From Solobacterium sp. (GTDB lineage Bacteria; Bacillota_I; Bacilli_A; Erysipelotrichales; Erysipelotrichaceae): 44,468 nucleotides of DNA. The position numbers and the translations under genes are program-made. The stretch's first letter is position 1. The number at the start of each line of letters is the position of its first letter. Location of the stretch: the NCBI GenBank assembly GCA_024698805.1, contig JAILQT010000029.1, forward strand, positions 1 to 44,468, in the 5' to 3' direction. The notes below the pieces were generated by a model. The model had not been told where the DNA came from. It saw nothing but the letters and a program-made list of their open reading frames with translations, and did not search any database. Below, one piece after another: positions 3,740 to 32,326 of the stretch.

Positions 3740-4288
3740 CTATTCTCCCTGTATCCTTACCGCCAGCATCCGCAGCACATCCACCATGTTCTTCAGGACT
3801 TCTTCATCGCTGCCGTCCTTCTGCAGATACATATACGCACCGGTGCACAGCTGCCGGAACGTATCATCCTCCATGAGGCCGGGATCGCGCTCAGCGAGAT
3901 AACCGAGCACCTGCAGCACTTCCCTGAGGTCTCCGCGCAGACGGAAGATCCGGTGTTCCTGCGAGACCTCTGTGATCAGCTGCTCCAGCGTCCAGTTTTC
4001 ATTCACGTCTGTCACTGCTGCGAATATCACATCGTCATCCGGAACGGTCCTGATCAGGTCCTTCATCTCTTCCTTCGCAAAGCCTGACGCAACGGCAAGA
4101 GGAATGCCGCGGCAGCTGCCGCAGTGATCGGTATGTTCTTCAAACAGAGTCTTCAGCGTCTGCCCCAGGCATGTATCGTCAGCCGCAAAGCAGCTGTATC
4201 CTGCATGGATAAGGTCCCGGATCTTCCCGGACCCGTATACAAGGATCTTTTTCACGCTGCTGCCGGGTATCCTGTTTTTATTTTCCAT
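3740..4288 (-). CDS. unknown protein, first gene of the pseudouridine operon
   Basis: I do not recognise this 182-residue protein. It has no signal peptide or membrane segment. It starts with a basic leader, then a short beta strand and glycine turn (KILVYGSGKIRDLIHAGY), a possible CGSC pair near residues 56-59, a strand (DDDVIFAAVTD) and a helical C-terminal half. The KILVYGSG start could be a nucleotide-binding strand-turn, but no family motif follows. Being first in the operon with psuK and psuG suggests a role in pseudouridine handling. The gene appears leaderless: its ATG lies six bases after the extended -10 box TGATAGCAT, and no Shine-Dalgarno site is visible. Confidence 0.7.
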   Translation of the reverse strand: MENKNRIPGSSVKKILVYGSGKIRDLIHAGYSCFAADDTCLGQTLKTLFEEHTDHCGSCRGIPLAVASGFAKEEMKDLIRTVPDDDVIFAAVTDVNENWTLEQLITEVSQEHRIFRLRGDLREVLQVLGYLAERDPGLMEDDTFRQLCTGAYMYLQKDGSDEEVLKNMVDVLRMLAVRIQGE

Positions 4289-4294
4289 ATAAAA

Positions 4295-4304
4295 ATGCTA
4301 TCAT
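4295..4304. promoter_or_regulatory. shared -10 element of two divergent promoters
   Basis: The ten bases ATGCTATCAT read as TGCTATCAT on the plus strand (4296-4304, for the DtxR gene) and as TGATAGCAT on the minus strand (4303-4295, for the psu operon). Both have the TGn extended -10 form. One element thus serves both directions, so RNA polymerase can open only one promoter at a time. Confidence 0.55.
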
Positions 4305-4323
4305 GTTTCATAGGAGTTGACCA

Positions 4324-4701
4324 ATGACAATGCAGATTTATGAATCATCCGAAGATTATCTTGAAGCGATACTGATCATCGCTTCCGAGAAAGGGACTGT
4401 CCACTCGGTAGATGTAGCCGAATACCTTCATTTTTCAAAAGCAAGCGTCAGTATTGCCATGAAGAAGCTGCGCGAGAACGGCTATATCCGCATGGAAAAG
4501 AACGGCGAGCTCATCCTTCTGGACAAAGGCAGGGTCATTGCGGAAAGCATCTATGAACGTCACCGTGTTCTGACGGACTTCTTTGTAAGCATCGGGGTGG
4601 ACAGGGAGACCGCCGCGAAAGACGCGTGCAAGATCGAACATGATCTCAGCGAGATCACATTTGAAAAACTGAAGCAGATGATCTATGAAGGGAAGGCGTG
4701 A
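4324..4701 (+). CDS. DtxR/MntR-type metal-dependent transcription regulator
   Basis: A 125-residue regulator with an N-terminal winged helix (EDYLEAIL, DVAEYLHFSKASVSIAMKKLRENGYI) and a dimerisation domain without the extra SH3-like domain, as in manganese-type MntR. The metal ligands expected from MntR can be seen: the N-terminal acidic residues of SSEDYLEAI, the histidine in YERHRVL (about 78) and the EH pair of ACKIEHDLSEI (about 101-102). The known family represses Mn or Fe uptake genes when metal is bound; its targets are not evident here. AGGAG stands seven bases before the first ATG; a second ATG two codons on is possible. It diverges from the psu operon. Confidence 0.88.
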   Translation: MTMQIYESSEDYLEAILIIASEKGTVHSVDVAEYLHFSKASVSIAMKKLRENGYIRMEKNGELILLDKGRVIAESIYERHRVLTDFFVSIGVDRETAAKDACKIEHDLSEITFEKLKQMIYEGKA

Positions 4702-5255
4702 CCGTCTTCCCTTTTTATCTGGATACTGCCTTCACTGCCGCGGATGAGGAATACCGTCCCGCCGCTGTTCCTGTCTTCCGTACGGACCGCATCACCCTGG
4801 TGCGAGACAGTCCGCAGATGCAGGAGGCATCCGTCACTGTCCCTGATCTCCAGATGATCGGGATGTATTTCCGTGCGCCAGGGATCGAGCCAGCCGAGCC
4901 TTCTTACCGCAGCCTTTTCCGGATCATAACCGGTCTTTTCAAGGATCCGTGACTCCGCATCCCGCATCAGCTGTTTCTGTTCGTCCGTATAATCGAAATA
5001 GAGTCTGACCTCATTGAACCGAACGGAATTATAGGAAACGCTCCTCGGATCAGCCGCTGCTTCCAGCATCCTCTCTGACGCAAAGTCCGCATCTGCGAAA
5101 CAATAGAAACGTATTCCCAGTTCGGGATCGACATAGCCGTAGGCAGCGACCGCATCCGCAGTGCTGCCGGGCCGGATAAAGCCGGCGATCTGCCTGCTTT
5201 CAATGAGCACGAAGGCATCTGTGTACATCCGGTAAACGATACTGTCCAGCCTCAT
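4683..5255 (-). CDS. unknown protein, last gene of the trhP-tldD operon
   Basis: A 190-residue protein I cannot place in a family with confidence. It is soluble, with an alpha/beta first half (DAFVLIESRQIAGFIRPG; GIRFYCFADADFASERML) and a C-terminal part rich in charged residues that ends in a strand-like EGSIQIKREDG. The start at 5255 is chosen because it forms an ATGA overlap with the SGNH hydrolase stop; nine more upstream codons are open but lie inside that gene. Its last 19 bases overlap the end of the convergent DtxR gene. It may be a partner of the esterase just upstream. Confidence 0.65.
   Translation of the reverse strand: MRLDSIVYRMYTDAFVLIESRQIAGFIRPGSTADAVAAYGYVDPELGIRFYCFADADFASERMLEAAADPRSVSYNSVRFNEVRLYFDYTDEQKQLMRDAESRILEKTGYDPEKAAVRRLGWLDPWRTEIHPDHLEIRDSDGCLLHLRTVSHQGDAVRTEDRNSGGTVFLIRGSEGSIQIKREDGHAFPS
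4690..4716 (+). terminator. intrinsic terminator of the DtxR-type gene
   Basis: Stem GGGAAG (4690-4695) and CTTCCC (4706-4711) with a ten-base loop containing the stop codon, followed by TTTTT. It lies inside the 3' end of the convergent unknown gene. Confidence 0.65.
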
Positions 5256-6424
5256 CTGCCGCCCCGCCCTGAAAACAGACATTCATATGCGGTGTCCGCC
5301 ATTGCCTTATAACCGGCATCGCTCGGATGCAGATGATCACCGCTGTCATAGTGCGGCGCAAACGCTTCCGGGTCATCGGGATCGCGCAGCGCCATGTCGA
5401 AATCGGCACAGCCGGCAAAACGTTTTTCTGTGCGCAGCCAGTCATTGAACCGGTCTTTCAGCTCATCCCGGAACGGCGCATGCGTCCGCCAGCCTTTGAT
5501 CGGCAGAAGCGTGCCTGCGTAAACGGTCAGGCCAAGGGCTTCCGCATGATCCAGATAATAGCCGGATACGCCTGCAGCGAGCTCTTCCGCTGCCGGCAGG
5601 TCGCTCCACGGCCTGAACGGGTTCACATCCGTGCCGACGGGATGGATGATGTCATTGATGCCGTGCTGGATCAGGACTGTATCCGCACCTGCCGTATTCA
5701 TCTCAAGGGGGAAGCGCAGCTCCCCTTTCGTGCCGTATGCGGCATAGGTGATGGAATCGTATTCGCGAAGGATCCTTGTCCCGCTGATCGCCCTGCGGAT
5801 GATCGAGACATTGTGCGGGCCTTCTTTTTCAATACGCAGGGAAAGCCAGTCCGGCCAGTCCTGCGCGGTGATGGAATCCCCGTAGCAGATCACGGCATGA
5901 TTCTCTTCGGACGTATGTATGTCTACCGTATTCAGGAATGTGAACCATCCGGTCTTCCTCGTCAGATCAAGCGGCAGCCCCTCTTCCTTCTCATGATCGC
6001 CGTAGGAATAGAAGCCCTTTGAAAGCGGTCCGGTGATCAGGACTGCGGAATTCATCTGCGTATAATCCTTCATGTACATACTGACAGTGAGCGTATCCTG
6101 CGCCTGTATATCCATTTCGATCACATCGCTCTGTCTCTCTTCCCCCGGCTGCAGGACAAGGTCCCTGCTGCCGTCAAAGAGGATATCCCTCACAGATCCT
6201 GTATCGATCGTTTTATCCCCTGTGCCGTATGCGCAGGAAGCGGTAAAGCGGACAGGCTCCGTACCCCGGATATTGGAAAAGCGGATACGCACCGCATCGC
6301 CGCTGAAGCACATCCGCAGCGGGTAGCGAAGTGTGAGATCCTTTGTATATGTGCAGTCTGTCTGGTCACGGATCGATGTCGCGTTCCCCCAGCAGGCGAC
6401 CCATTTCGAAAATTCCCCCATCAT
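5252..6424 (-). CDS. two-domain SGNH/GDSL hydrolase (carbohydrate-esterase-like)
   Basis: A 390-residue cytosolic hydrolase. Residues 1-170 form a beta-rich domain like those before the catalytic domain of SGNH esterases. The catalytic domain starts at YGDSITAQDW with nucleophile Ser184, followed by the block II glycine (SGT, 215), HGIND (block III, Asn257) and SGDHLHPSDAGY with Asp363 and His366. All four SGNH blocks are intact. Such enzymes remove acyl groups from sugars or other small esters; the substrate is not known. No signal peptide is seen. GAGGTGG precedes the ATG pair. The gene follows the zinc-ribbon gene by 12 bases and is coupled to the downstream unknown by an ATGA overlap. Confidence 0.9.
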   Translation of the reverse strand: MMGEFSKWVACWGNATSIRDQTDCTYTKDLTLRYPLRMCFSGDAVRIRFSNIRGTEPVRFTASCAYGTGDKTIDTGSVRDILFDGSRDLVLQPGEERQSDVIEMDIQAQDTLTVSMYMKDYTQMNSAVLITGPLSKGFYSYGDHEKEEGLPLDLTRKTGWFTFLNTVDIHTSEENHAVICYGDSITAQDWPDWLSLRIEKEGPHNVSIIRRAISGTRILREYDSITYAAYGTKGELRFPLEMNTAGADTVLIQHGINDIIHPVGTDVNPFRPWSDLPAAEELAAGVSGYYLDHAEALGLTVYAGTLLPIKGWRTHAPFRDELKDRFNDWLRTEKRFAGCADFDMALRDPDDPEAFAPHYDSGDHLHPSDAGYKAMADTAYECLFSGRGGR

Positions 6425-6436
6425 GCGGCCACCTCT

Positions 6437-6709
6437 TCAGATCCAGTCATAATTCCCTCCGGTGATCGCCAGGGAGAGGAGCGTGTCATATTTCTCAACG
6501 TTTTCCGCGCCTTCGATCACTTCCAGAAGGACAGCGGTCTCGTCTGTCTGCGGCATCTCGTCATCCGGACCGATCTCCATATCGGGCTGTACATTCCCGC
6601 AGTCCGGGCACGGCAGTGCCGGGGCGGTGCGGACATCGAGGAATCTCGAGCCGCATCTGGTGCATTCATAGAACCCGCATCTTGCTGTTCCGTCTTCCAC
6701 AAAATACAT
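6437..6709 (-). CDS. small zinc-ribbon protein
   Basis: A 90-residue protein with two CxxC knuckles, CTRC and CPDC, about 16 residues apart, which make a rubredoxin-like zinc ribbon. The acidic tail ends with LLSLAITGGNYDWI. ATG at 6709 is preferred, because AAGGAG stands eight bases upstream; a TTG two codons earlier is less likely. It lies 12 bases after pmbA and 12 bases before the SGNH hydrolase, in the same transcript. Function is unknown; proteins of this size often act as accessory or metal-binding partners. Confidence 0.75.
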   Translation of the reverse strand: MYFVEDGTARCGFYECTRCGSRFLDVRTAPALPCPDCGNVQPDMEIGPDDEMPQTDETAVLLEVIEGAENVEKYDTLLSLAITGGNYDWI

Positions 6710-6721
6710 GACCAATTCTCC

Positions 6722-8044
6722 TTATTCGCCGCTGACGGCGCATTCGCTGAACAGTATGCTCGGACATGCGACAGTCCGGAAGCCCCATTCCAGATCGCTG
6801 CCGACATATTCCGCATTCTTAAGCATCTGCAGGAAGTTGCCTGCAGCCGTAACAAGCTTTACGTCAAACGCACGTTTCCCGTCTTTTACATAGTATCCCG
6901 CGGACTGCAGCGAGAAATCACCGGTGACGGGATCAAGACCTGCATGAAGTCCCTGCAGGGATGTGATGACATAGCCTTCCTGCATGACCTCCATCAGTTC
7001 TTCGAGCGTTTTGTCTTTCGGTTCGATGCAGCAGTTATGCATCCGGATGCCTACCTTGGACGCATACGAGCCCTTGAAGCCGTTGCCGGTGGATTCCGTA
7101 CCGTCTTTCAGGGCGCTCGCGGTATTGTAGAGCAGCTGTTCCAGTACGCCGCTGCTGACGAGCTTCTTGGCTTTTGTCGGACACCCTTCATCGTCAAAGC
7201 TCAGAGCGGCAGCCGCTTCGGGATTTGCGGGATCGTCGATCACGGTGATGCAGTCCGCAAACAGTTTCTGTCCTGTCCTGCCGACGAGCGGGGAAATCCC
7301 CTTCTGTACGGATTCAGCCGAGAACATGCCGGAGAATGCCGAGAACAGCGCTGTCATCGCTTCTTTTTCAAAGATGACCCTGTATGTGCCGCTTTTAATC
7401 GTTTTTGCATTCAGCTTGCTGAGGACGTCCGTGCAGAGCTTTCTGACGAATGCATCGCAGTCAAAATCCTGCGGGTCCTGCACACGGGCATAGTGATAGC
7501 CGTTGACCACGTTCCCGCCTTCACGCGCCGCAGCACCTGCAGCGATGACGGAAACGGTATTGCCTTCCCTGAGGTCGATGCCGTTTGAATTGACGATGCT
7601 TCTTTCTTCGGATTCTTCAACATATTCCAGGAACGGGACCATGAAGATCTTCGGATCAAATCCGAGGATCTTTTTCTCCGCTTCGGAAAGAAGGCTTTTT
7701 ACTGTTTCAACAGACACGGGCACAGGGGCAGGCGTTTCCTTCACGGAAACTTCCTGCGGCTGTCGCAGACTGACGACATCCTCAGAACTGATCGCTTCGG
7801 CCTGTGCTTTCATCTCGCCGACCAGGTCTTCCATCTTCTCCCCATCCGGCGCTTCGGTAGCCGCGTAGACCATCTTGCCGCCGGTCTCGCCGCGGAACGC
7901 TGTCCCGCATACACGGCTCTCGACATAGCTTTCGATATTGCCTTCATACCAGTTTACGGTCTTCTCCGCACTTGTCTTCTGGTAGATCTCAAAACTGTCA
8001 AACCCGTTGTTCAGCGCATAGCTGATCCATTCCTTTTTATTCAT
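6722..8044 (-). CDS. pmbA: TldD/PmbA family protein (TldE-like partner)
   Basis: A 440-residue member of the PmbA/TldE family. In Escherichia coli TldD and TldE form a heterodimeric metalloprotease that trims unfolded peptides such as microcin B17 precursors; TldE has no active zinc site. Here the HExxxH motif of TldD is absent at the matching place, as expected for TldE. The protein starts at MNKKEWISYALNNGFDSFEIYQ, and the C-terminal half carries the family stretches (GFKGSYASKVGIRMHN, GDFSLQSAGYYVKDG). It overlaps the tldD stop by 8 bases and has GGAGG upstream, so tldD and pmbA are co-translated and probably form one complex. Confidence 0.93.
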   Translation of the reverse strand: MNKKEWISYALNNGFDSFEIYQKTSAEKTVNWYEGNIESYVESRVCGTAFRGETGGKMVYAATEAPDGEKMEDLVGEMKAQAEAISSEDVVSLRQPQEVSVKETPAPVPVSVETVKSLLSEAEKKILGFDPKIFMVPFLEYVEESEERSIVNSNGIDLREGNTVSVIAAGAAAREGGNVVNGYHYARVQDPQDFDCDAFVRKLCTDVLSKLNAKTIKSGTYRVIFEKEAMTALFSAFSGMFSAESVQKGISPLVGRTGQKLFADCITVIDDPANPEAAAALSFDDEGCPTKAKKLVSSGVLEQLLYNTASALKDGTESTGNGFKGSYASKVGIRMHNCCIEPKDKTLEELMEVMQEGYVITSLQGLHAGLDPVTGDFSLQSAGYYVKDGKRAFDVKLVTAAGNFLQMLKNAEYVGSDLEWGFRTVACPSILFSECAVSGE

Positions 8045-9425
8045 TGGATGTTCCTCCGACCGTGATCCGGCTGATCCGGATGGCAGGCTGACCGACGTCT
8101 GTCGGGATACTGCCGCTGGCTGCGCCGCACATACCCTGGCCTCTTGCAAGGTTGGACGCGACCTTTTCAATGTTCATGATGATCTCTCTCCCGCTCCCGA
8201 TCAGGGCTGCGCCTTTGACAGGACAGGTGACTTTGCCGTTCTCGATCAGGTATCCTTCCAGGACGGAGAAGTTGAACTCGCCTGTCTGCGGATTGACGCT
8301 GCCGCCGCCCATCGTCCTGGCGTACAGGCCTTTTTCGATCCCTTCGAAGAGTTCTTCATAGGATGAATCGCCTGCAGCGATATAAGTGTTCGTCATTCTC
8401 GAAGTCGGCTCGAACTTGTAGGATTCCCTGCGCGAGCTTGACGTGCTCTCCGCATTCATGCGGCGTCCGTTCAGCCTGTCGATCAGGTAGGACTTCAGAA
8501 TGCCGTTTTCGATCAGGACGCGTTTCTTCTGGAAATTGCCTTCATCGTCGATATTCTGCGAGCCCCAGGCATTGGGGATCGTGCCGTCATCGATCGCCGT
8601 AACGCAATCCGAAGCGACCTTCTGGCCGATCAGGTTGGAGAAGACGCTCTGGTTCTTGGAAACGACACTGGCTTCCAGGCCGTGCCCGCAGGCTTCATGG
8701 AAGATGACGCCGCCGAAGGCATTGTCGATGACGACAGGCATCATGCCGGAAGGACACGGACGGGCGCTGAGATTGACGACAGCGATCCTGGCAGCTTCCC
8801 TGCCAGCTTCTTCGGGTGTGAATTCCTCAAAGAATTCCGGGCCTTTGCCGGCGCCCGGCCTGCAGCCGCCGCCCTGTCTGTTGTCACCTTCCTGTGCGAG
8901 GGCATCGACCATCATGCGGGTGCGCACGCGGGTATCGGATATCAGTCTGCCTTCACTGTTGGAGATCTGGACCTCCTGGCGTACATTCAGTAGCGAAGCC
9001 TGCACTTTGGCGATCCTCTCATCGCTGTTCTTTGCCGCATCCGTAGCGCGTCGGAGCAGGTCAGATTTTTCGACCGCGCTCATATCCCGGAAGTCAGTTT
9101 TCGCAGGATGACGGTTCTCATATTCCACCCGTTCCAGGGTGACTGTCCCGGTCTCGTCACTTCTGCCGATCGCATCGCGAAGATCATCGATCAGGCCGGC
9201 AAGCACATCCTCTGCCGTATCATTCGTATAGGCGTAGACCGTCTGCAGACCCTTGTACAGCCTGATGCCGACACCTGCGGTATGCGTCCGGTTCACATTC
9301 TCTGTCTTTCCCTCTGTCATGGAGATCGTCTCGCTGATCTCGTCTTCTTCATAGATCTCCGCGAAATCAGCCTGTGACGACATGCACAGGGACAGGTACT
9401 TCTCCAGTCGTGTTTTATCCAGCAT
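8037..9425 (-). CDS. tldD: metalloprotease TldD
   Basis: A 462-residue TldD with the zinc site HEACGH at residues 243-248 (His243, Glu244, His248) in the conserved NAFGGVIFHEACGHGLEA block. The C-terminal region has the expected MGGGSVNPQTGEFNFSV and LIENGKVTCPVKGAALIGSG stretches. Full length. Known TldD works with TldE/PmbA to degrade small unstructured peptides. GGGAGG lies before the ATG, inside the tail of the methyltransferase gene (11-base overlap). No antibiotic-peptide genes are nearby, so a housekeeping peptide-trimming role is likelier than bacteriocin maturation. Confidence 0.96.
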   Translation of the reverse strand: MLDKTRLEKYLSLCMSSQADFAEIYEEDEISETISMTEGKTENVNRTHTAGVGIRLYKGLQTVYAYTNDTAEDVLAGLIDDLRDAIGRSDETGTVTLERVEYENRHPAKTDFRDMSAVEKSDLLRRATDAAKNSDERIAKVQASLLNVRQEVQISNSEGRLISDTRVRTRMMVDALAQEGDNRQGGGCRPGAGKGPEFFEEFTPEEAGREAARIAVVNLSARPCPSGMMPVVIDNAFGGVIFHEACGHGLEASVVSKNQSVFSNLIGQKVASDCVTAIDDGTIPNAWGSQNIDDEGNFQKKRVLIENGILKSYLIDRLNGRRMNAESTSSSRRESYKFEPTSRMTNTYIAAGDSSYEELFEGIEKGLYARTMGGGSVNPQTGEFNFSVLEGYLIENGKVTCPVKGAALIGSGREIIMNIEKVASNLARGQGMCGAASGSIPTDVGQPAIRISRITVGGTSNE

Positions 9426-11371: not shown

Positions 11372-12223
11372 TCACCTGATCGTTTTCTGCGTATAGTAGC
11401 CTTCTTCAAGAGGCAGATCCCTGTATTTTTCCAGATACGCATCCGTATCCGGCATCCCGCCGTCAAGGAGCGCACGGTACAGCCTCACCGTATCAAGCAG
11501 CTGTTCATCCTCCGTCAGCAGGCTGTTGATCTCGCAGCGGACGATATCACCGCGCACCTGCGGAAGCAGGCGGAAAGAATGCAGGACATAATCCGTCCAC
11601 ACCGTCGTACCGTATGTATTCTCAAAGACAGGCATCAGGCCTTCGCGTTTTTCCTCCCGCAGCACAGCTGTCTTCGGTACGCTTTTCCCGATGACCGTTT
11701 CATATGCATGAAGCAGCTTCCTGGCGGATACGCTCATCAGCTGCCTGCCGTGTATGCACAGGGACAGGCCTTTCACGCTGCGGACGATCGCTTCCGTCTC
11801 TTCATACGTAAGCAGCGGGGAAACATAGACGGAGCCGAATCCCTGCCGCATCCACCACGCCGCATCCGCCGCATTGGTGATCAGCGCAGCAGGCCTGAAT
11901 ATGAGCTTCCCCGTGTTGCCGGCAGCGAAGCGGACCAGCCCCGGATCGGCGATCTGCACCGTATCCGCATATTCCAGCAGACACTGCAGTTTCCTTCCTG
12001 CTTCTTCGATCTCGCCTTCGCTGAACAGCCTGTCCGCGATGACGCCCGCCTCCATGCCGTCCTGATGAACGGTCTGTATCATTTTTTCTGTTTCTTCTTC
12101 ACTGAACGAAGCAGCCGCATGGAAGGAAAGGTCACTGCGGACGATCAGCGCTTCATCCGCACCGGCTTCCTTCAGGTCTTCTGCCAGTTCTGCTTTTTCC
12201 AGTATTACCGATAATTTTGCCAT
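11372..12223 (-). CDS. trhP1: U32 family protein, tRNA U34 hydroxylation protein P1
   Basis: A 283-residue, shorter U32-like protein placed directly before the larger one, as Bacillus yrrN precedes yrrO. It has the TIM-barrel-like repeats (ILEKAELAEDLKEAGADEALI, ADTVQIADPGLVRF) but lacks the cysteine cluster of the larger protein, as does YrrN. The known pair is needed for 5-hydroxyuridine at the wobble base of tRNAs. ATG at 12223 is preferred over 12235, because the latter lies within the -10 box. The gene seems leaderless: TGATATGAT ends seven bases before the ATG and no Shine-Dalgarno site is present. It is the first gene of the eight-gene operon. Confidence 0.8.
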   Translation of the reverse strand: MAKLSVILEKAELAEDLKEAGADEALIVRSDLSFHAAASFSEEETEKMIQTVHQDGMEAGVIADRLFSEGEIEEAGRKLQCLLEYADTVQIADPGLVRFAAGNTGKLIFRPAALITNAADAAWWMRQGFGSVYVSPLLTYEETEAIVRSVKGLSLCIHGRQLMSVSARKLLHAYETVIGKSVPKTAVLREEKREGLMPVFENTYGTTVWTDYVLHSFRLLPQVRGDIVRCEINSLLTEDEQLLDTVRLYRALLDGGMPDTDAYLEKYRDLPLEEGYYTQKTIR

Positions 12224-12230
12224 ATGTTTA

Positions 12231-12239
12231 ATCATATCA
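12231..12239 (-). promoter_or_regulatory. extended -10 promoter of the trhP1 operon (leaderless)
   Basis: TGATATGAT on the minus strand, with seven bases between it and the trhP1 ATG. No -35 match is seen 17 bases upstream. The predicted start is the A of the ATG. Confidence 0.6.
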
Positions 12240-12403: not shown

Positions 12404-12976
12404 ATGTTTAAAAGAATAACATCGTCTGCGGCGCATCTGAAAGATGTGCGGTACCTTGCACTGATGGCCCTGTTCATCGCAATGAGAACTGCTCTTTCTT
12501 CACTCTATATCCCTGTAGGTGAGAACCTGCGCATCCTTGTGACATTCATCCCCGCTGCCCTGGAGGCTTCGATCATCGGGCCGATCCCCGCACTCGTATC
12601 CGGTGCGCTCAGCGACCTCATCGGCTATATGCTGTTTCCGAGCGGCGCATTTTTCCCGGGATATACGGTCTCGGCGATGGCCGGGAGCTTCATCTACGCG
12701 CTGTTCTTTTATGAGAGGAACATCAGCGTACTGCGCATCGCCCTCGCAAAGCTGATCGTCAATGCATTCGTCAATGTCGGTCTCGGCTCCCTGTGGTCGG
12801 CGATCCAGTTCTCAAAAGGATATATCTACTATATGGCAAAGAGCGTCGTAAAGAATTCGATCCTGCTGCCGATCGAGATCATTATCCTGATCCTGATGTT
12901 CAACCTGCTGCTGCCTGTAATGAAAAAAAGGAAGCTTGTCTATTCCGGACAGGTACTGCCTGTACCCTGGAAGTGA
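12404..12976 (+). CDS. folT: folate-specific S component of an ECF transporter
   Basis: A 190-residue integral membrane protein with five or six hydrophobic segments. It shows the S-component features of the family: LALMALFIAMRTALS in the first helix (the stretch that contacts the EcfT subunit) and PAALEASIIGPIPALVSGALSDLIGYMLFPSGAFFPGY typical of FolT. It captures folates and uses the shared EcfAT energising module, encoded elsewhere. The THF riboswitch upstream fixes the substrate. The gene is monocistronic: an intrinsic terminator overlaps its stop codon. Confidence 0.94.
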   Translation: MFKRITSSAAHLKDVRYLALMALFIAMRTALSSLYIPVGENLRILVTFIPAALEASIIGPIPALVSGALSDLIGYMLFPSGAFFPGYTVSAMAGSFIYALFFYERNISVLRIALAKLIVNAFVNVGLGSLWSAIQFSKGYIYYMAKSVVKNSILLPIEIIILILMFNLLLPVMKKRKLVYSGQVLPVPWK

Positions 12977-12991
12977 CAACTTCCTTTTTTT
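12969..12991 (+). terminator. intrinsic terminator of folT
   Basis: Stem GGAAGT (12969-12974) with ACTTCC (12979-12984), GACA loop, then seven T. The folT stop codon is within it. Confidence 0.8.
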
Positions 12992-13004
12992 GTGATTGAG
13001 ACAA

Positions 13005-13013
13005 TGCTATAAT
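13005..13013 (+). promoter_or_regulatory. extended -10 promoter of the yggS-like gene (leaderless)
   Basis: TGCTATAAT, a near-perfect extended -10, ends seven bases before the ATG at 13021. No -35 box and no Shine-Dalgarno site are seen. Confidence 0.68.
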
Positions 13014-13020
13014 CTTCACG

Positions 13021-13671
13021 ATGATACAGAAACATTATGAACATGTAAAAGATATATGCGGCGAAGCAGAACTGTGCATCGTCACCAAGAAGCGCAGCAT
13101 TGAAGAGATCATGTCCTATTATGACGCAGGTGAGCGTGTATTCGGCGAGAACCACGCTGCCGAGCTGAAGAAAAAGGCGTCTGTCCTTCCGCAGGACATC
13201 CGCTGGAACTTTATCGGCCACCTGCAGACGAACAAGGTCAGGATGATCATGCCGTTCGTTTCGATGATCCAGTCCCTGGATTCGATGCATCTGGCGGAAG
13301 TGGTCGAAAAGGAAGCGGCACGCACCGGCAGGACTGTCGATGTCCTGGCCGAGGTGCATCTCGCCGAAGAGGATACGAACAAATCCGGCCTGGAGCCTGA
13401 AGAACTGGATGGTTTCCTTGCCGGGCTCGCATCACTGCCGCATCTTCACGTCAGGGGGATGATGGTCATGGGACCGCATACGGATGACGAAGACAGGATC
13501 CGGGAAGTATTCCGGAAAGCGCATGAACTGTTCCTTGCGCATCAGAAAGAGAACAGTGATTTCCGCATCCTTTCCATGGGCATGAGCGATGATTACCCGC
13601 TCGCCGTCCAGGAAGGAAGCACCATGGTGCGGATCGGCACCTATCTGTTTGAAACGGGAGACGGCGAATGA
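13021..13671 (+). CDS. YggS/PLPBP family pyridoxal-phosphate homeostasis protein
   Basis: A 216-residue single-domain PLP-binding TIM-barrel protein (YggS, YlmE, human PROSC). The PLP lysine is expected at K23 in CIVTKKRS. FGENHAAEL, WNFIGHLQTNKV and the C-terminal phosphate-binding block SMGMSDDYPLAVQEGSTMVRIGTYLF are classic. It has no enzyme activity in known cases and buffers PLP. The predicted transcript starts at the ATG itself. The next gene follows after 34 bases and probably shares the transcript. Confidence 0.93.
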   Translation: MIQKHYEHVKDICGEAELCIVTKKRSIEEIMSYYDAGERVFGENHAAELKKKASVLPQDIRWNFIGHLQTNKVRMIMPFVSMIQSLDSMHLAEVVEKEAARTGRTVDVLAEVHLAEEDTNKSGLEPEELDGFLAGLASLPHLHVRGMMVMGPHTDDEDRIREVFRKAHELFLAHQKENSDFRILSMGMSDDYPLAVQEGSTMVRIGTYLFETGDGE

Positions 13672-18128: not shown

Positions 18129-19055
18129 TCAGATGACGGGGGCCTTTACAGAAGCCAGGATCTCCTTCAGGAGATGTGATGCGGACAGATGATTCATCTG
18201 TGCATCCTTGCTGAGGATCAGCCTGTGTGCGGCCGTCTTCTCCAGGACAAACGCCACGTCATCCGGTATGACATAGTTTCGGTTGGAGATAAAAGCGGTG
18301 GCTTTCGCCATGGACACGACCGCAAGCGTTGCCCTGGGGCTGGCTCCCTGCCGGATCATCGGGTGCGTCCTTGTGCAGTTCATGATATCAACGACGTACC
18401 GGATCACTTCCGGTTTGATATAGATCATGCTGATCTGTTTCTGCAGTTCCGCAAGCCTTTCCCTGTCCAGCACCTGTCTCAGTGCCTGCACGGGATCGCT
18501 GCCCATCCTGTTCTGCACCATCTCGACCTCGGATGCCGCATCGGGATAGCCCATGGTAAGGCGGATCATGAACCGGTCCGTCTGCGAATCGGGAAGGAGC
18601 TGCGTGCCTGCCGCGCCTGCCGGATTCTGCGTCGCGATCACGAAGAACGGGTCCGGCAGTGCCCTTGTGACACCGTCCACGGTGACGCTTTTCTCTTCCA
18701 TCGCTTCAAGGAGCGCTGACTGCGTTCTTGAGACGGCACGGTTCAGCTCATCTGCCATGAACAGGTTTGCAAAGATCGCGCCGGGAACATAGCGGAGGGT
18801 GCCGGATTCCTTTTCATAAACGGAAAAGCCCGTGATATCGGAAGGCAGCACATCCGGCGTGAACTGCATGCGTGATACGCTTAAGCCGAGCACACGTGAA
18901 AAAGCACGGACCATCGTCGTCTTTCCTACGCCCGGGATGTCCTCGATCAGGACATGCCCGCCCGCAAGCAGCGCCATAAGGATCCATGCGATCTCTTCTG
19001 TTTTGCCTGAAACGGCTTTTTTGACTTCATTCAGAACGGATGTAAATTCATTCAT
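18129..19055 (-). CDS. MoxR family AAA+ ATPase
   Basis: A 308-residue AAA+ ATPase. The Walker A is present but altered: GVGKTT in DIPGVGKTTMVRAFS. Walker B is LFMADELNRA, sensor 1 is VIATQNPAGAAGT, and the arginine finger region RFMIRLTMGYPD and the C-terminal lid (GASPRATLAVVSMAKATAFI) are those of MoxR. It is a chaperone-like ATPase thought to mature the products of the following genes. It heads the three-gene operon. Its ATG lies six bases after the extended -10 box TGATATTCT with no Shine-Dalgarno site, so the mRNA is predicted to be leaderless. Confidence 0.95.
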   Translation of the reverse strand: MNEFTSVLNEVKKAVSGKTEEIAWILMALLAGGHVLIEDIPGVGKTTMVRAFSRVLGLSVSRMQFTPDVLPSDITGFSVYEKESGTLRYVPGAIFANLFMADELNRAVSRTQSALLEAMEEKSVTVDGVTRALPDPFFVIATQNPAGAAGTQLLPDSQTDRFMIRLTMGYPDAASEVEMVQNRMGSDPVQALRQVLDRERLAELQKQISMIYIKPEVIRYVVDIMNCTRTHPMIRQGASPRATLAVVSMAKATAFISNRNYVIPDDVAFVLEKTAAHRLILSKDAQMNHLSASHLLKEILASVKAPVI

Positions 19056-19061
19056 GGATAT

Positions 19062-19070
19062 AGAATATCA
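19062..19070 (-). promoter_or_regulatory. extended -10 promoter of the MoxR operon (leaderless)
   Basis: TGATATTCT on the minus strand, six bases before the MoxR ATG; no -35 match at 17 bases (AACAGA there). Confidence 0.55.
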
Positions 19071-19994: not shown

Positions 19995-20437
19995 TTCTGC
20001 CTGCCCTTTATTTCCTTTCCGGGGATATACTGTTCTACATACTTTTTTACCGCATTCCTTGAAAACATCTCCTGGATCTGCGTCGTACCGTCCGTAAGCG
20101 TAAAGACCAGGTGATCCACCCCTGTCTTTTTCTCATAACGCCAGGAAACGATATCCTCCCAGTAGATGACCATGCAGTCGTCGCGGTCATGCTGGTTGAA
20201 AAGCACGATATAGCCCGGCGTAAACTCGCACAGGTCCCTGTCCGGCATGACCAGGATCGCAAACAGCGCCAGCAGCATGATCGTTATGCCCGCCGGCAGC
20301 ATATACGGCTTCATCACGATGAGAAGCGCACCCGCAAACAGCAGGATCCACAGGATCAGCGTCGGCTTGACATGGACCAGCTTCATGATCTTCCTGTTCC
20401 CGTCCAGGTTGTGTTTCCTTATCATTTTTGATTTCAT
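19991..20437 (-). CDS. two-helix membrane protein with a PH-like domain
   Basis: A 148-residue protein with a basic N-terminus, two adjacent membrane helices (PTLILWILLFAGALLIVM and ITIMLLALFAILVM, about residues 26-62) and a C-terminal beta-rich domain (YIVLFNQHDRDDCMVIYWEDIVSWRYEKKTG). The latter resembles the bacterial PH/YcxB-like fold seen in many small membrane proteins. Function is unknown. It is the first gene of the ArsR-exonuclease unit and is predicted leaderless: TGATATAAT ends six bases before the ATG and no ribosome site is seen. Confidence 0.72.
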   Translation of the reverse strand: MKSKMIRKHNLDGNRKIMKLVHVKPTLILWILLFAGALLIVMKPYMLPAGITIMLLALFAILVMPDRDLCEFTPGYIVLFNQHDRDDCMVIYWEDIVSWRYEKKTGVDHLVFTLTDGTTQIQEMFSRNAVKKYVEQYIPGKEIKGRQK

Positions 20438-20443
20438 GGAATT

Positions 20444-20452
20444 ATTATATCA
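20444..20452 (-). promoter_or_regulatory. extended -10 promoter of the PH-like/ArsR/exonuclease operon (leaderless)
   Basis: TGATATAAT on the minus strand, six bases before the ATG at 20437; consensus extended -10 with no -35. Confidence 0.65.
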
Positions 20453-20466: not shown

Positions 20467-21655
<1,189 letters not shown>

Positions 21656-27563: not shown

Positions 27564-27566
27564 TTT

Positions 27567-28133
27567 TCATTCCTTTCCTGACTGTCTGATTAGATCTGTA
27601 ATGATGTCTGTGATCTCTTCGGCTGTCGCCTCTCCTTTTTTCGCAAGTTCCGTAAGTCCGCCTGCCAGCATGTCAGCCAGATATTTCTCATACCTTGCGT
27701 GCAGTTCACCGAGCCTGTTCCCTTCGCGGATCAGTTCCTCGAGTCTGGAAGAGATCGCCTCCCTGGCGTCTTTGATCGAACGCATGCTGAGGGGCGTTAG
27801 GTCCACTCCCTCATCCGTCGTGTGCAGCCTGTTCAGCAGATCGATAAACGATCTGACCGAAGTCTCCACTGTCCTTTCAAGCATATCCGCAAAATCCGGG
27901 CATTCTTCCTGCTGGGCCATCATGGAGCGGAATGCGCTGCTGTACTTTTCGCTGATCGCTTCGATCACGTCTTCCTTGGAGTTGAAGTAATAGTAGAACA
28001 GCCCTTTCGCAACGTTCATTTCCTTAACGATGGAATTGATCGTCGTATCCATGATGCCGTTCTGGCGGAACAGCTTTTCCGCCGCGTCTACGAATTCATT
28101 CCTGCGTTCTGCAGATTCCTTGTTTTCGCGCAA
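27567..28133 (-). CDS. TetR family transcription repressor
   Basis: A 188-residue TetR protein. The helix-turn-helix is clear (AAEKLFRQNGIMDTTINSIVKEMNVAKGLFYYYFNSKEDVIEAI), and the C-terminal ligand domain is helical. The start is uncertain. An ATG at 28154 lies only three bases after the -10 box, so the predicted RNA would begin inside it. The TTG at 28133 has AAAGGAG eight bases upstream and is preferred (seven residues shorter). A perfect inverted repeat lies in its promoter, so it probably represses itself and the coiled-coil gene. Confidence 0.88.
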   Translation of the reverse strand: MRENKESAERRNEFVDAAEKLFRQNGIMDTTINSIVKEMNVAKGLFYYYFNSKEDVIEAISEKYSSAFRSMMAQQEECPDFADMLERTVETSVRSFIDLLNRLHTTDEGVDLTPLSMRSIKDAREAISSRLEELIREGNRLGELHARYEKYLADMLAGGLTELAKKGEATAEEITDIITDLIRQSGKE

Positions 28134-28157
28134 TTCTCTCACTCCTTTCTCCATGAT

Positions 28158-28187
28158 ACTATATCAGCGGACTGACCATCAGTCAAA
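28158..28187 (-). promoter_or_regulatory. TetR promoter and operator
   Basis: Minus strand: TTGACT, 17-base spacer, extended -10 TGATATAGT (28166-28158). The perfect inverted repeat GACTGA-TGG-TCAGTC (28184-28170) overlaps the -35 and the spacer, the right place for autorepression. Confidence 0.75.
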
Positions 28188-28230
28188 TTTTTGCAGATCA
28201 ATTAATCAAATATGAAGAAATACGCGGACA

Positions 28231-28239
28231 TGGTATACT
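28231..28239 (+). promoter_or_regulatory. extended -10 promoter of rlmA (leaderless)
   Basis: TGGTATACT, six bases before the ATG at 28246; no -35 and no Shine-Dalgarno site. Confidence 0.62.
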
Positions 28240-28245
28240 TCTCAT

Positions 28246-29025
28246 ATGCTGTACACATGCCCCCTATGCGGAAACAGACTGATCAAAGACAATAAACGGG
28301 CCGTATGTGCATCCGGTCACAGTTTTGATTTTGCGAAAAGCGGTTATCTGAACCTGCTGATATCCAATTCATCCGTCCACGGCGATGCGCCGGATATGAT
28401 CCGTGCGAGGACAAGGTTCCTGCAGACAGGCAGCTACGGCTTCCTCAGGGACAGGCTGGCGCAGATCACGGACGAGCTTTCGCCTGAAGTCCTCCTGGAC
28501 CTTGGCTGCGGCGAAGGCTATTACACCTCTGCATTGCACGGAGAAGAAAAATACGGCTTCGACCTGTCCAAGGATGCGCTGATCCATGCGTCAAAGCACG
28601 ATAGATCCACGCAGTATGCAGTCGCATCCATATTCTCGCTGCCGCTGCCGGACGCAAGTGCGGATGCGGTGCTGACATGCTTCGCGCCGTATGCCCAAGC
28701 CGAGATCGGCAGGATCCTCAAAAGCGGCGGCAGGTTCATCTTCGTGACACCGGGAAGAAAACACCTGTTTGAAATGAAGGAGATCCTCTATGAAAAGCCT
28801 TATGAGAACAGGACCGATCCCCTGGAAACGGATCTGGCAATGATCCATGAGGAGTGCATCAGCGATACCTTCACTGTCGGAAACGAAGCCCTGCAGGATC
28901 TCTTCGCGATGACGCCGTATGCAAGGCATACGCCTCCCGAAGGAAGGGAGAAGCTCTCGCAGGTCCGTGAGATGCAGGTCACGGCTTCCTTCATCATCCG
29001 TATATATCAGAAAACAGACAGCTGA
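28246..29025 (+). CDS. rlmA: 23S rRNA guanine-N1 methyltransferase, RlmA type
   Basis: A 259-residue methyltransferase. The N-terminal zinc finger C-x2-C...C-x3-H (YTCPLCGNRL, AVCASGHSFDFAKSGYLNLL) is typical of RlmA, as is DAPDMIRARTRFLQTGSY. The S-adenosylmethionine fold begins LLDLGCGEGYYTSAL and continues with FDLSKDALIHASK. The known family methylates N1 of G745 or G748 in 23S rRNA; which of the two cannot be told here, and the TlrB subgroup gives tylosin resistance. The transcript is predicted to start at the ATG. It diverges from the TetR gene and is single. Confidence 0.9.
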   Translation: MLYTCPLCGNRLIKDNKRAVCASGHSFDFAKSGYLNLLISNSSVHGDAPDMIRARTRFLQTGSYGFLRDRLAQITDELSPEVLLDLGCGEGYYTSALHGEEKYGFDLSKDALIHASKHDRSTQYAVASIFSLPLPDASADAVLTCFAPYAQAEIGRILKSGGRFIFVTPGRKHLFEMKEILYEKPYENRTDPLETDLAMIHEECISDTFTVGNEALQDLFAMTPYARHTPPEGREKLSQVREMQVTASFIIRIYQKTDS

Positions 29026-29040
29026 AACGGCTGTCTGCTT
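29015..29040. terminator. terminator after rlmA
   Basis: 8-bp stem CAGACAGC (29015-29022) with GCTGTCTG (29030-29037), then CTTTGCTTT. The stop codon of rlmA is in the loop. It also lies just past the end of the convergent gene and may serve both. Confidence 0.7.
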
Positions 29041-29044
29041 TGCT

Positions 29045-29401
29045 TTACCATATCTCGATCAACTCGTGCAGGACCTCTTTTTTGTTCCTGTCTGTGACCC
29101 TCATTACGATCGAACAGGGGACCACGCTGCCGTTTTTGTAGGAAGGCCGGCAGTCATACCCCTTCACCTTTCCTTCGATCAGCAGCTGTTCGACAACATC
29201 GTCAAAATGCTCCTTCACTGCCGCTGTACCGGCCGGTACATACAGGCAGTTATCCATTTTTTCCGAACCGCCGAAACGCGGATCGACAAGATACAGGAGT
29301 TCCAGTTCGCCTTTTTCCAGCATCCCCTGTGCTTCGGCCTGCGTGATGCCGCTGAAGTCCGGACTGTTTTTCTTTTTTTTCAGTCTGTCAGGCAAACCCA
29401 T
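29045..29401 (-). CDS. unknown protein, last gene of the fumarase operon
   Basis: A 118-residue soluble protein that I do not recognise. A lysine-rich start (RLKKKKNSPDFSG) is followed by an alpha/beta region: LELLYLVDPRFGGSEKMDNCLYVPAGTAAVKEHFDDVVEQLLIEGKVKGYDCRPSYKNG, then a hydrophobic strand SIVMRVTDR and a helix. No metal or catalytic motif is seen. It lies six bases after the DUF1622 gene, on the same transcript. Confidence 0.62.
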   Translation of the reverse strand: MGLPDRLKKKKNSPDFSGITQAEAQGMLEKGELELLYLVDPRFGGSEKMDNCLYVPAGTAAVKEHFDDVVEQLLIEGKVKGYDCRPSYKNGSVVPCSIVMRVTDRNKKEVLHELIEIW

Positions 29402-29407
29402 GGACTC

Positions 29408-29749
29408 TCACTCGCCGTGTTCTGCTTCTTTTTCGCTCCTCAGTTCAAGGTGGATCTCCAGCGTCATCAGTCCGCGCAGGATGACCAGCGAGCCGAGGAC
29501 CATCAGGTCGGACAGCTGTTTTGCCAGGACGGTATGCAGCACCTCGGCTGCGAGCAGGAACTCAAGCGTCAGGGCGATGCCTTCCGCCAGTTCATGACCG
29601 CTGTTCTTTTTGCCTGCAAGCCATTTCACCAGGCACTGGATGCCTGTCTTGACCATGACCAGGAGCGCGAACAGTTCAAGGATCGTTCCGCCCATCTCGA
29701 CAAAAACGGTCAGGATATTATGCAGTACCTCTACATATGTCTCTAACAT
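29408..29749 (-). CDS. DUF1622 family membrane protein
   Basis: A 113-residue membrane protein with three hydrophobic helices: MLETYVEVLHNILTVFVEMGGTILELFALLVMV, then GIALTLEFLLAAEVLHTVLA, then LSDLMVLGSLVILRGLMTLEIHLEL. It matches DUF1622 in length and in the LE-rich helices. Function is unknown. AAAGGG stands before the ATG. It directly follows the malic enzyme gene, so it may be related to C4-acid metabolism, but DUF1622 genes occur in varied settings. Confidence 0.83.
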   Translation of the reverse strand: MLETYVEVLHNILTVFVEMGGTILELFALLVMVKTGIQCLVKWLAGKKNSGHELAEGIALTLEFLLAAEVLHTVLAKQLSDLMVLGSLVILRGLMTLEIHLELRSEKEAEHGE

Positions 29750-29751
29750 GC

Positions 29752-30933
29752 TTATCCCTTTCTGACATACCCTTCACGTATGCATTCTTCTGCGACTGCC
29801 TTCGATACAGCTGGAACGACTCTTTCATCGAACGGGGAAACGATGACATGGTCGGGCGTCAGTTCCTCATCCGACACGAGGGAAGCGATGGCCTTTGAGG
29901 CAGCGATCTTCATGTTTTCACTGATCCTCGTTGCCCTGCAGTCAAGAGCTCCCCGGAAGATACCCGGGAAAGCAAGGAGGTTGTTTACCTGGTTTGGATA
30001 ATCGCTCCTGCCGGTACCGACGATATATGCGCCGGCTGCCTTCGCATCCTCATAGGATACTTCCGGCTCCGGGTTCGCCATCGGGAATACCATGCAGCCG
30101 GGATTCATCGTTTCGACCATCTCCTTTGTGACAACGCCCGGGGAACTGACGCCGATAAAGATATCGGCACCCTTCAGGCCTTCTGCGATATTCGCATAAT
30201 CCTGATCATCAAGGTTCGTGTAGTCGAGAAGTTCCCTCTTCAGGTCCGTATAGCGGTCATAGTTCTTCTTTGCGATACATCCTTTGGAATCAAATGCATA
30301 GATCCTTGTAAAACCGTATTTATACAGCATGCGGATGATCGAGGAACCGGCAGCGCCGCAGCCGCTGACGACGACCTTCATATCCGCAGGATCTGTTTTC
30401 TTAAGCCGCATGCAGTTGATCAGGGCAGCCAGGACGACGATCGCTGTTCCGTGCTGGTCATCATGGAATACCGGTATATCCAGTTCTTCGATCAGTCTTC
30501 TTTCGATCGTGACGCAGCGCGGCGCACTGATATCTTCCAGATTGATCGCACCGATGGAGGGTGCCATCAGCTTGCAGAATTCAATGATCTTTTCCGGATC
30601 CTTCGTATCCAGGCAGACCGGCCATGCGTCCAGACCTGCAAACCTCTTCATCAGGAGTGCTTTGCCTTCCATGACAGGGAGACCGGCTTCCGGTCCGATA
30701 TCCCCGAGTCCGAGCACGGCAGTGCCGTCGGTGATGACAGCCACGGTATTGCCTTTGCCGGTATATCTGTAGACATCTTCCCTGTTTTTGTGGATCTGAC
30801 GGCAGGGCTCCGCAACGCCGGGAGTATATGCAAGACTGAGATCATACGCATTCTGGCAGGGTACCTTCGATTCCACCGTCAGTTTGCCCCTGTGCTGTTC
30901 GTGAAGCTTTAATGCTTCATCATAAATACTCAT
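29752..30933 (-). CDS. NAD(P)-dependent malic enzyme (decarboxylating)
   Basis: A 393-residue short-form malic enzyme that turns L-malate into pyruvate, CO2 and NAD(P)H. SLAYTPGVAEPCRQI, GDIGPEAGLPVMEGKALLMKRFAG with the catalytic Lys, and INLEDISAPRC give the active site. DIPVFHDDQHGTAIVVLAAL has the metal-binding Asp pair, and VVVSGCGAAGSSI is the Rossmann dinucleotide site (GxGxxG variant). It overlaps the fumarase beta subunit stop as ATGA, so fumarate is converted through malate to pyruvate by one operon. Confidence 0.95.
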   Translation of the reverse strand: MSIYDEALKLHEQHRGKLTVESKVPCQNAYDLSLAYTPGVAEPCRQIHKNREDVYRYTGKGNTVAVITDGTAVLGLGDIGPEAGLPVMEGKALLMKRFAGLDAWPVCLDTKDPEKIIEFCKLMAPSIGAINLEDISAPRCVTIERRLIEELDIPVFHDDQHGTAIVVLAALINCMRLKKTDPADMKVVVSGCGAAGSSIIRMLYKYGFTRIYAFDSKGCIAKKNYDRYTDLKRELLDYTNLDDQDYANIAEGLKGADIFIGVSSPGVVTKEMVETMNPGCMVFPMANPEPEVSYEDAKAAGAYIVGTGRSDYPNQVNNLLAFPGIFRGALDCRATRISENMKIAASKAIASLVSDEELTPDHVIVSPFDERVVPAVSKAVAEECIREGYVRKG

Positions 30934-31466
30934 TTTTCTTCCTCCATGTCATAGATATCGTTCCCGCTGCAGTCGATGCCGACAAAGCAGGGAAAATCCT
31001 TTACTTCCAGTCTTGTGACCGCTTCGCTAAGCAGATCCTCAAAAGCGACCGGTTCTCTTTTGATAATACTTTTGGAAAGCAGTGCACCTGCCCCTCCCGG
31101 GGCAATAAAATATATGCCCCCGTGACGGACGACTGCTTCTTTCACCGCATCGCTTCTGCGGCCTTTGCCGATCATGCCGGTCATACCGTGTTCCATCAGT
31201 TCAGGTACATACGGGTCCATCCGTGAAGCGGTCGTAGGACCGGCAGAACCGATCACCTGCCCTTTTTTCGCGGGTGTGGGACCGACATAGTAGATCACGG
31301 CATTATTGAGATCGAACGGCAGTTCTTCACCTTTTGCGATCATTTCATGCAGGCGTTTGTGTGCTGCATCCCTGGCGGTATAGATGACGCCGCTCAGGAG
31401 TACAGGATCGCCTGCTTTCAGTTCTCTGCGTTCCTCCGCAGATAAAGGGAGCTGCAGTTTTTTCAT
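30930..31466 (-). CDS. class I fumarate hydratase, beta subunit
   Basis: A 178-residue C-terminal domain of class I (Fe-S) fumarases. LPLSAEERRELKAGDPVLLSGVIYTARDAAHKRLHEM, YYVGPTPAKKGQVIGSAGPTTASRMD and MIGKGRR are classic for the beta part. Fumarate is hydrated to malate together with the alpha subunit. L-tartrate dehydratase is an alternative with the same fold, but the malic enzyme downstream favours fumarase. The start at 31466 forms a TGATG overlap with the alpha subunit. Confidence 0.93.
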   Translation of the reverse strand: MKKLQLPLSAEERRELKAGDPVLLSGVIYTARDAAHKRLHEMIAKGEELPFDLNNAVIYYVGPTPAKKGQVIGSAGPTTASRMDPYVPELMEHGMTGMIGKGRRSDAVKEAVVRHGGIYFIAPGGAGALLSKSIIKREPVAFEDLLSEAVTRLEVKDFPCFVGIDCSGNDIYDMEEEK

Positions 31467-32311
31467 CAGATCACCGCCTTTGCATGCCTGCACACATGGC
31501 AGCACATATTCACAGCACAGGGAAGACCGGCGATATGCGTCGGCGCATATTCGATCTGCACTTTCAGTGCGGTTGTCTTTCCATGGAATCCCATGGGACC
31601 TACCTTCAGCCGGTTTGCGGCCTCAAGAAGTTCATCCTCCAGCTTTCTGTAGCGGGGATCACTGTTTCCTTCATGCAGGGGTCTGAGCAGGGCACGCTTG
31701 GAAAGGACTGCGCACGAATCGAATGTGCCGCCGATGCCTACCCCTACGATAAACGGGGGACATGCGTTCGGTCCCGCGTTTCTGATCGTGTCCAGGACAA
31801 ATGCCCTGACGCCTTCTTCCCCTTCTGCAGGTGTCAGCATCTTTACAGCCGACTTGTTCTCCGAACCGAATCCCTTCGCCATCAGTTCGATGACGACCCG
31901 GTCCCCTTCCGTGATCTCGGTATAGATCACTGCAGGCGTATTGTCCTTTGTATTTTTTCTGTCAAACAGCGGATCATCCACAGCGGAAGCACGCAGGCAG
32001 TTCTCCGTATAGCTTCTGCGGACGCCGTTGTGCACGGCTTCATACAGGCTGCCGTTTACGAAATGGACCTCCTGCCCGACCTTCAGCCATACAATGACAA
32101 GTCCTGTGTCCTGGCAGATTGGGATCCTTTCTTTTTCAGCGATCTCTGCGTTTTCCAGCAGCATCTTCACAGCTGCCCTGGACCGTTCATCCGTTTCCTC
32201 TTCATATGCTTTCCGGAAACCTTCCAGGATCCCCGGGTCATACTGCACGGCTATCCTGCCGCATTCTTCGAAGACCTTATCTTCGACCAGTTTTACATCT
32301 ATTTCACGCAT
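31466..32311 (-). CDS. class I fumarate hydratase, alpha subunit
   Basis: A 281-residue N-terminal domain of class I fumarases with the three cluster cysteines in PICQDTG, NACPPFIVGVGIGG and CCHVC near the end. KGFGSENKSAVKML and GPMGFHGKTTALKVQIEYAPTHIAGLPCAVNM are the conserved substrate and subunit contacts. It is oxygen-sensitive in known cases, suiting an anaerobe. It is the first gene of a five-gene operon. It appears leaderless: TGCTAAAAT ends six bases before the ATG, and no Shine-Dalgarno site is present. Confidence 0.94.
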   Translation of the reverse strand: MREIDVKLVEDKVFEECGRIAVQYDPGILEGFRKAYEEETDERSRAAVKMLLENAEIAEKERIPICQDTGLVIVWLKVGQEVHFVNGSLYEAVHNGVRRSYTENCLRASAVDDPLFDRKNTKDNTPAVIYTEITEGDRVVIELMAKGFGSENKSAVKMLTPAEGEEGVRAFVLDTIRNAGPNACPPFIVGVGIGGTFDSCAVLSKRALLRPLHEGNSDPRYRKLEDELLEAANRLKVGPMGFHGKTTALKVQIEYAPTHIAGLPCAVNMCCHVCRHAKAVI

Positions 32312-32317
32312 GCAGTT

Positions 32318-32326
32318 ATTTTAGCA
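32318..32326 (-). promoter_or_regulatory. extended -10 promoter of the fumarase operon (leaderless)
   Basis: TGCTAAAAT on the minus strand, six bases before the alpha subunit ATG, in the 36 bases between it and the XRE gene. Confidence 0.58.

Follow-up and report, generated by a model that had tools for sequence, protein, structure and literature searches.

The 44,468-nucleotide stretch of DNA analyzed here (the window; contig JAILQT010000029.1 of Solobacterium sp., assembly GCA_024698805.1) contains a series of genes in which an extended -10 promoter box of the form TGnTAnnnT lies 6 to 8 bases ahead of the ATG start codon. The original prediction for this DNA had quoted eight such boxes, seven with a gap of 6 or 7 bases between box and ATG and one, before a gene for a CDF transporter, with a gap of 8 bases, and had proposed that the corresponding mRNAs are leaderless, i.e., that they begin at the AUG itself. 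All of the quoted boxes and gaps were present in the window, as follows.

4303-4295, minus strand (element 4286 to 4303): extended -10 box TGATAGCAT, gap 6, ATG at 4288; DUF3783 gene (PF12646), head of the psu operon.
12239-12231, minus strand (element 12221 to 12239): extended -10 box TGATATGAT, gap 7, ATG at 12223; trhP-like gene, peptidase U32 (PF01136).
13005-13013, plus strand (element 12969 to 13023): extended -10 box TGCTATAAT, gap 7, ATG at 13021; yggS-like gene, alanine-racemase N-domain (PF01168).
19070-19062, minus strand (element 19053 to 19070): extended -10 box TGATATTCT, gap 6, ATG at 19055; moxR, MoxR-type AAA (PF07726).
20452-20444, minus strand (element 20435 to 20452): extended -10 box TGATATAAT, gap 6, ATG at 20437; small 'PH-like' gene.
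28231-28239, plus strand (element 28231 to 28248): extended -10 box TGGTATACT, gap 6, ATG at 28246; rlmA, zinc ribbon and methyltransferase (PF21302).
32326-32318, minus strand (element 32309 to 32326): extended -10 box TGCTAAAAT, gap 6, ATG at 32311; fumarase alpha gene (PF05681).
36816-36808, minus strand (element 36797 to 36816): weaker case TGATACAAT, gap 8, ATG at 36799; CDF transporter gene, cation efflux (PF01545).

Two in-frame ATGs are present in the trhP-like gene, and the one at 12223 is the second; the start of the longest open reading frame (ORF), at 12235, overlaps the box, and the residue that matches ATG 12223 is the start in several trhP homologues (offset 0). The product of the 'PH-like' gene, a name taken from the original prediction, had no match in Pfam, and the codon-usage gene caller favored the next ATG of this gene, at 20425. 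The CDF box overlaps the end of the upstream reading frame. Upstream of the yggS-like gene, a terminator-like hairpin (12969-12984) with a T-run to 12991 stands at the end of the preceding gene (named folT in the earlier work), and 13 bases separate the end of the T-run from the yggS-like box, which leaves little room beyond the promoter and the ATG. Strict matches to the layout numbered 8 at gap 6-7 in the window and no more than 2 at every other single gap from 3 to 11; the eighth strict match, at gap 6, belongs to an out-of-frame ATG at 20512 (plus strand) before tgt, which is described below.

A scan for an excess of this layout over shuffled controls, as the original prediction had suggested, was run on 20 further stretches of 20 kb, equal to 14% of the 2.8 Mb genome. 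Genes were called with a simple codon-usage script, yielding 419 genes in the window and the 20 stretches. Of the 178 operon heads in the stretches beyond the window, 13 had a -10 box at gap 6-7 from the called start, compared with a mean of 2.9 and a maximum of 6 in 30 dinucleotide shuffles, and the operon-internal genes of the sample had none (0/167). When alternative in-frame ATGs were allowed, the gap profile of these 178 heads peaked with 10 genes at gap 6 and 5 at gap 7; each of the gaps 0-5 held 0-3 genes, and each of the gaps 8-12 held 1-3. Once the window was included, 20 of 195 heads fell at gap 6-7, where 3.4 were predicted from the neighboring gaps. Furthermore, of the 23 strict boxes at gap 6-7, 16 preceded an ATG that is an in-frame gene start (9 of 15 when the window is left out), versus 1/18 at gap 3-4 and 0/14 at gap 10-11. 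Across the whole genome, the pattern TGNTATAMT followed by ATG within 15 bases gave 68 matches. Gap 6 accounted for 11 of these, gap 7 for 10 and gap 8 for 6, and the remaining gaps between 0 and 15 held 1-5 apiece. A -10 hexamer 6-8 bases before the start codon is more frequent in this genome than expected by chance.

The window is a favorable one for this layout, as 8 of its 50 genes had a box at gap 6-8, compared with 18 of 346 genes in the sample (p 0.01, in a test run with 345 genes in the sample). This richness, together with the small excess of a loose whole-genome pattern that is given below, is what might be expected if -10-like words occurred everywhere upstream of genes and those near ATGs had simply been picked. 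The sample outside the window contradicts such an origin by chance, since its peak stood far above both the dinucleotide shuffles and the neighboring gaps, and recurrence of the layout in homologues does so as well; we regard chance as almost certainly the wrong explanation. We also considered whether the window might be a misbinned contig and rejected this, as its tetranucleotide correlation with the 20 sampled stretches was 0.956-0.981; its mean correlation (0.968) was above the mean of every stretch (0.936-0.966).

Features expected of transcription start sites were examined in the 26 of 396 genes with a box at gap 6-8. A pyrimidine is expected at position -1 of a transcription start site, and the base preceding the ATG was C or T in 23 of these 26 genes versus 214 of the 370 other genes (p 0.0016), an excess in keeping with transcription that starts on the A of the ATG. 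The TGn extension preceded the box in 17 of the 26 genes versus 25 of 75 boxes at gap 20-45 (p 0.006); it was present in 8/8 window boxes, which had been selected for it. The original prediction had described no Shine-Dalgarno site at these heads; AGGA, GGAG or GAGG was found between positions -20 and -3 in none of the 8 window genes and in 0/26 genes overall (Fisher p 2e-11), a lack that is partly by construction because a box at gap 6 takes up much of the stretch searched. In the sample, Shine-Dalgarno matches were found for 93 of the 178 heads and for 114 of the 167 operon-internal genes. The 16S anti-Shine-Dalgarno tail was sought in the genome, and no 16S was found. A claimed absence of -35 boxes held within the window, where 7 of the 8 genes matched TTGACA at three positions or fewer and the best match was 4/6, in one gene; it did not hold genome-wide, where 10 of the 26 gap 6-8 promoters agreed with TTGACA in at least 4 of the 6 positions, compared with 13.6% in shuffles.

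We consider it very probable that the boxes in the window act as ordinary housekeeping-sigma (sigma-A type) promoters that give leaderless mRNAs. Transcription by RNA polymerase that carries the housekeeping sigma factor begins approximately 7 bases past the -10 hexamer. This distance agrees with a start-site map of Mesoplasma florum, in which most start sites were reported at a distance of 6 or 7 bases from the box (PMC7745072). A sigma-A type promoter, usually TGn-extended, would be sited such that its normal start is the A of the ATG; at a gap of 6, the start base would therefore be this A and the mRNA would begin with AUG. Such an mRNA would carry no 5' leader, and a ribosome carrying the initiator tRNA would begin translation straight from the 5'-terminal AUG. 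This architecture may be used by about a tenth of the genome's operon heads that have their own promoter. From the observed spacing and enrichment of the boxes, and from their recurrence in homologues and the lineage contrast presented below, we infer both the RNA 5' ends at the ATGs and the mode of ribosome entry. The leaderless reading, as originally put forward, is the best supported one because of the gap-specific enrichment, the use of the same gap in diverged homologues and the pyrimidine at position -1.

Transcription start-site choice often shifts by a base or two. The boxes might accordingly be functional while RNA starts either a few bases ahead of the ATG, which would give leaders of 1-5 bases, or inside it, which would give mRNAs that lack the start codon; the occurrence of gaps 7 and 8 would fit such shifts. 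Gap 6, however, was the commonest in both the genes of this genome and their homologues, and leaders of fewer than 8 or 10 bases are still classed as leaderless in published definitions (PMC10783764, PMC7724050); we consider this variant to be very unlikely.

Homologues of moxR were sought in 60 relatives, and those of rlmA, yggS and trhP, along with htpG as a control, in 77 genomes of the family. Matches were found in 33 (moxR), 67 (rlmA), 47 (yggS), 69 (trhP) and 71 (htpG) genomes, and 30 loci per gene were examined, taken from the best-scoring matches. The counts given here leave out the gene from the window itself, as well as any row that lacked a tblastn hit or a usable ATG, and related rows should not be read as independent observations. 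A box at gap 6-7 was present in 12 of 29 rlmA homologues, all 12 with the -10 box at exactly gap 6, as well as in 4/29 for yggS and 5/25 for trhP. The htpG control had this box in 0/29 and a Shine-Dalgarno match in 29/29. When the homologues of rlmA, yggS, trhP and moxR were pooled, the gap was exactly 6 in 20 of 111 rows and 7 in 2 rows, and none of the other gaps between 0 and 14 had more than 2 rows; gaps 15 to 30 held 2-8 rows each, as expected of short leaders. A gap-6/7 box and a Shine-Dalgarno match never occurred together in a pooled row, which is partly by construction. The spacing thus recurs in homologues.

We also asked whether the ATGs might have been wrongly chosen; translation would then begin at a downstream codon that follows a normal Shine-Dalgarno leader, and the box would sit ahead of an ordinary leader. 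One alternative in-frame start that has a Shine-Dalgarno match of four bases was found 33 bases downstream in the psu gene, 51 in the PH-like gene, 63 in the fumarase gene and 141 in moxR. No such start occurs within 150 bases in trhP, yggS, rlmA or the CDF gene, and in the 30 rlmA loci examined the match starts at query residue 1-4. In fumarase, the Pfam domain begins at residue 12 and would be truncated by the alternative start at residue 22; in moxR, the alternative start would remove sequence common to its closest homologues. Wrongly chosen starts would, moreover, give no peak at exactly 6. As a general explanation, misassigned starts appear very unlikely to us; for the psu gene and the PH-like gene, translation may nevertheless begin at the downstream alternative.

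Another possibility is a leadered mode of initiation that uses no Shine-Dalgarno site and depends on promoters further upstream, with boxes near the ATG recurring for some other reason, e.g., repressor binding. A gap-6/7 box and a Shine-Dalgarno match were both missing from 21 of the 111 pooled homologues, so that other modes of initiation may exist. The exact spacing of 6, the TG extension in 17 of 26 genes and the pyrimidine at -1 are, in contrast, features of start sites, and at yggS the T-run of the terminator-like hairpin stops 13 bases ahead of the box. We judge this explanation to be highly improbable.

In a tree of the 30 rlmA rows, the leaderless label was carried by 13 rows and required 6 changes, a rough figure given that many forks are weak and that one unlabelled row (L102) has a weaker gap-6 box. 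At least 5 changes were forced by well-supported branches, and shuffled labels required 10.0. As a separate observation, rlmA and htpG, which lie within ~10 kb of each other in the window (28246-34541), do so on the same contig in several other family genomes as well (e.g., G181, G239, G229, G246 and G259).

To follow the layout across the lineage, matches to the same strict pattern at gap 6-7 were compared with those at a control gap of 10-11 in 60 genomes. The kinship labels used here are those given by the search tool, and placement in the Bacillota follows the original prediction and the relatives of the genome. In the genus (the present genome and 35 others), there were 541 matches at gap 6-7 versus 237 at gap 10-11, with higher counts at gap 6-7 in 34 of 36 genomes; the present genome (G000) had 14 versus 7. 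In 24 genomes of a sister family, the totals were 481 versus 461, with gap 6-7 higher in 11 genomes and lower in 10. The gap 6-7 excess is, therefore, a lineage trait that is strong in the genus and absent in the sister family sampled. A layout common to all relatives had been considered earlier, and this idea was weakened: its order-wide appearance came from a poor control, the reversed pattern, and the sister-family excess disappeared under the gap 10-11 control. Counts made with the reversed control alone, in nine genomes with named records and a draw from the phylum, say little on gap preference and were not used as evidence (e.g., RGIG3509, 17 vs 2; Vallitaleaceae, 37 vs 14; Oceanobacillus, 16 vs 7; Paenibacillus, 11 vs 8; Lachnospira, 5 vs 5). 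The genus label itself covers a wide range for a single genus: samples from four genomes that bear it ran from 36% to 53% GC, and the best MoxR matches within it were often just ~40% identical. Among named genomes scanned with moxR, the top match reached 50% identity, in 'Bacillota bacterium isolate RGIG3509' of goat rumen origin.

Samples of gene starts agree with this lineage contrast in part only. In one genome of the same genus (G181), 8 of 82 heads had a box at gap 6-7, with 1.7 predicted from the flanking gaps. Several results, from these samples and from the analyses above, weigh against the leaderless reading or its spread. Two other samples from the genus were small in number (G007, 3/61; G034, 2/77; 0.6 predicted in each), and outside of the genus no clear gap 6-7 peak was seen, whether in G245 (0/91, 2.3 predicted), G050 (1/102, 4.0 predicted), G041 (5/112, 3.1 predicted), G203 (1/76, 1.4 predicted) or Oceanobacillus (1/115, 1.1 predicted). 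For moxR, just 1 of 28 other homologues had a box at gap 6-7. A loose pattern, TGNTANNNT, at gap 6-7 gave 125 matches in the whole genome compared with 97 for the reversed control. Finally, the lack of Shine-Dalgarno matches, being partly forced by the box, was not counted as independent proof.

The leaderless arrangement itself is already known, with several cases in other lineages. Mapped leaderless mRNAs were reported to make up 8.6% in Streptococcus pyogenes and ~9% in S. agalactiae and S. pneumoniae, and 81% of the S. pyogenes set was also reported in S. agalactiae (PMC6431027). The present case resembles these Bacillota in that leaderless mRNAs form a minority there beside leadered ones, as about one in ten heads would here. 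It differs in that the 5' ends were mapped in streptococci and are inferred here, and in that homologues in relatives often do not have the layout, whereas much of the streptococcal set is described as common to the species (PMC6431027). Zheng et al. (2011) predicted leaderless genes in 56 of 209 Firmicutes genomes, with a mean of 4.2%, and attributed them mainly to Lactobacillales and Mycoplasma (PMC3160421). Their 'TA-led' genes of the Lactococcus type, for which they reported a strong TG peak, share with the present case a TATAAT-like box just before the start codon and the TG extension; that peak was reported for low-GC genomes, unlike the present genome with 53% GC. The extended element and -10 box also recall M. 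florum, where some starts were reported exactly on the start codon, although this organism is a near-minimal Mollicute with few leaderless cases reported (PMC7745072). More broadly, a gene finder was reported to predict leaderless transcription in 21.6% of bacterial species (PMC9581028). The original prediction had stated that leaderless mRNAs are considered rare in Bacillota, which agrees with the reports of <1% in two enterococci (PMC7724050) and 15 leaderless genes in Clostridioides difficile (PMC7438776), but not with the streptococcal proportions or the Firmicutes predictions. We tentatively suggest, while regarding it as somewhat doubtful, that leaderless initiation expanded in one lineage of Bacillota, probably other than the streptococcal and mycoplasma lineages, in which single genes flip between a leaderless form at exactly gap 6 and a form with leader and Shine-Dalgarno site, with little in between.

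Two further arrangements in the window involve boxes of this kind. Upstream of tgt, TGCTATACT (20497-20529 region) lies 6 bases ahead of the out-of-frame ATG at 20512. This ATG starts a five-codon mini-ORF (ATG AAA GAG GTA TTA TGA) that has GAGGT inside and a stop codon overlapping the tgt ATG (20526). The mini-ORF may represent an upstream ORF that is leaderless and coupled to tgt, or a chance occurrence. The tgt arrangement has two counterparts elsewhere, at L071:8441 and L088:18960 (both minus strand), where a strict box stands 6-7 bases ahead of an out-of-frame ATG that lies shortly before a called gene. In the region 4286-4326, the psu-operon gene (minus strand) and a DtxR-like gene (plus strand) have overlapping divergent -10 boxes, TGATAGCAT at 4303-4295 and TGCTATCAT at 4296-4304. 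The psu side would be leaderless, and the DtxR-like side would have a leader of ~12 bases with AGGAG at its start. This pair looks like a bidirectional promoter of the kind reported in E. coli (PMC12825309).

As a prediction, these results extend leaderless transcription of the streptococcal type to an uncultured lineage of Bacillota. They also provide a rule for gene finders, namely, to accept an ATG 6-7 bases past a TGnTATAAT-like box even when it has no Shine-Dalgarno site. Leaderless and leadered mRNAs were reported to be able to differ in their response to some antibiotics (PMC9581028) and, in E. coli, under cold or MazF stress (PMC6431027). Homologues that switch between the two modes make the cost and benefit of leader loss testable, and if the flips track lifestyle or ribosome traits, they would offer a natural experiment on the reasons for which leaderless genes persist in bacteria.

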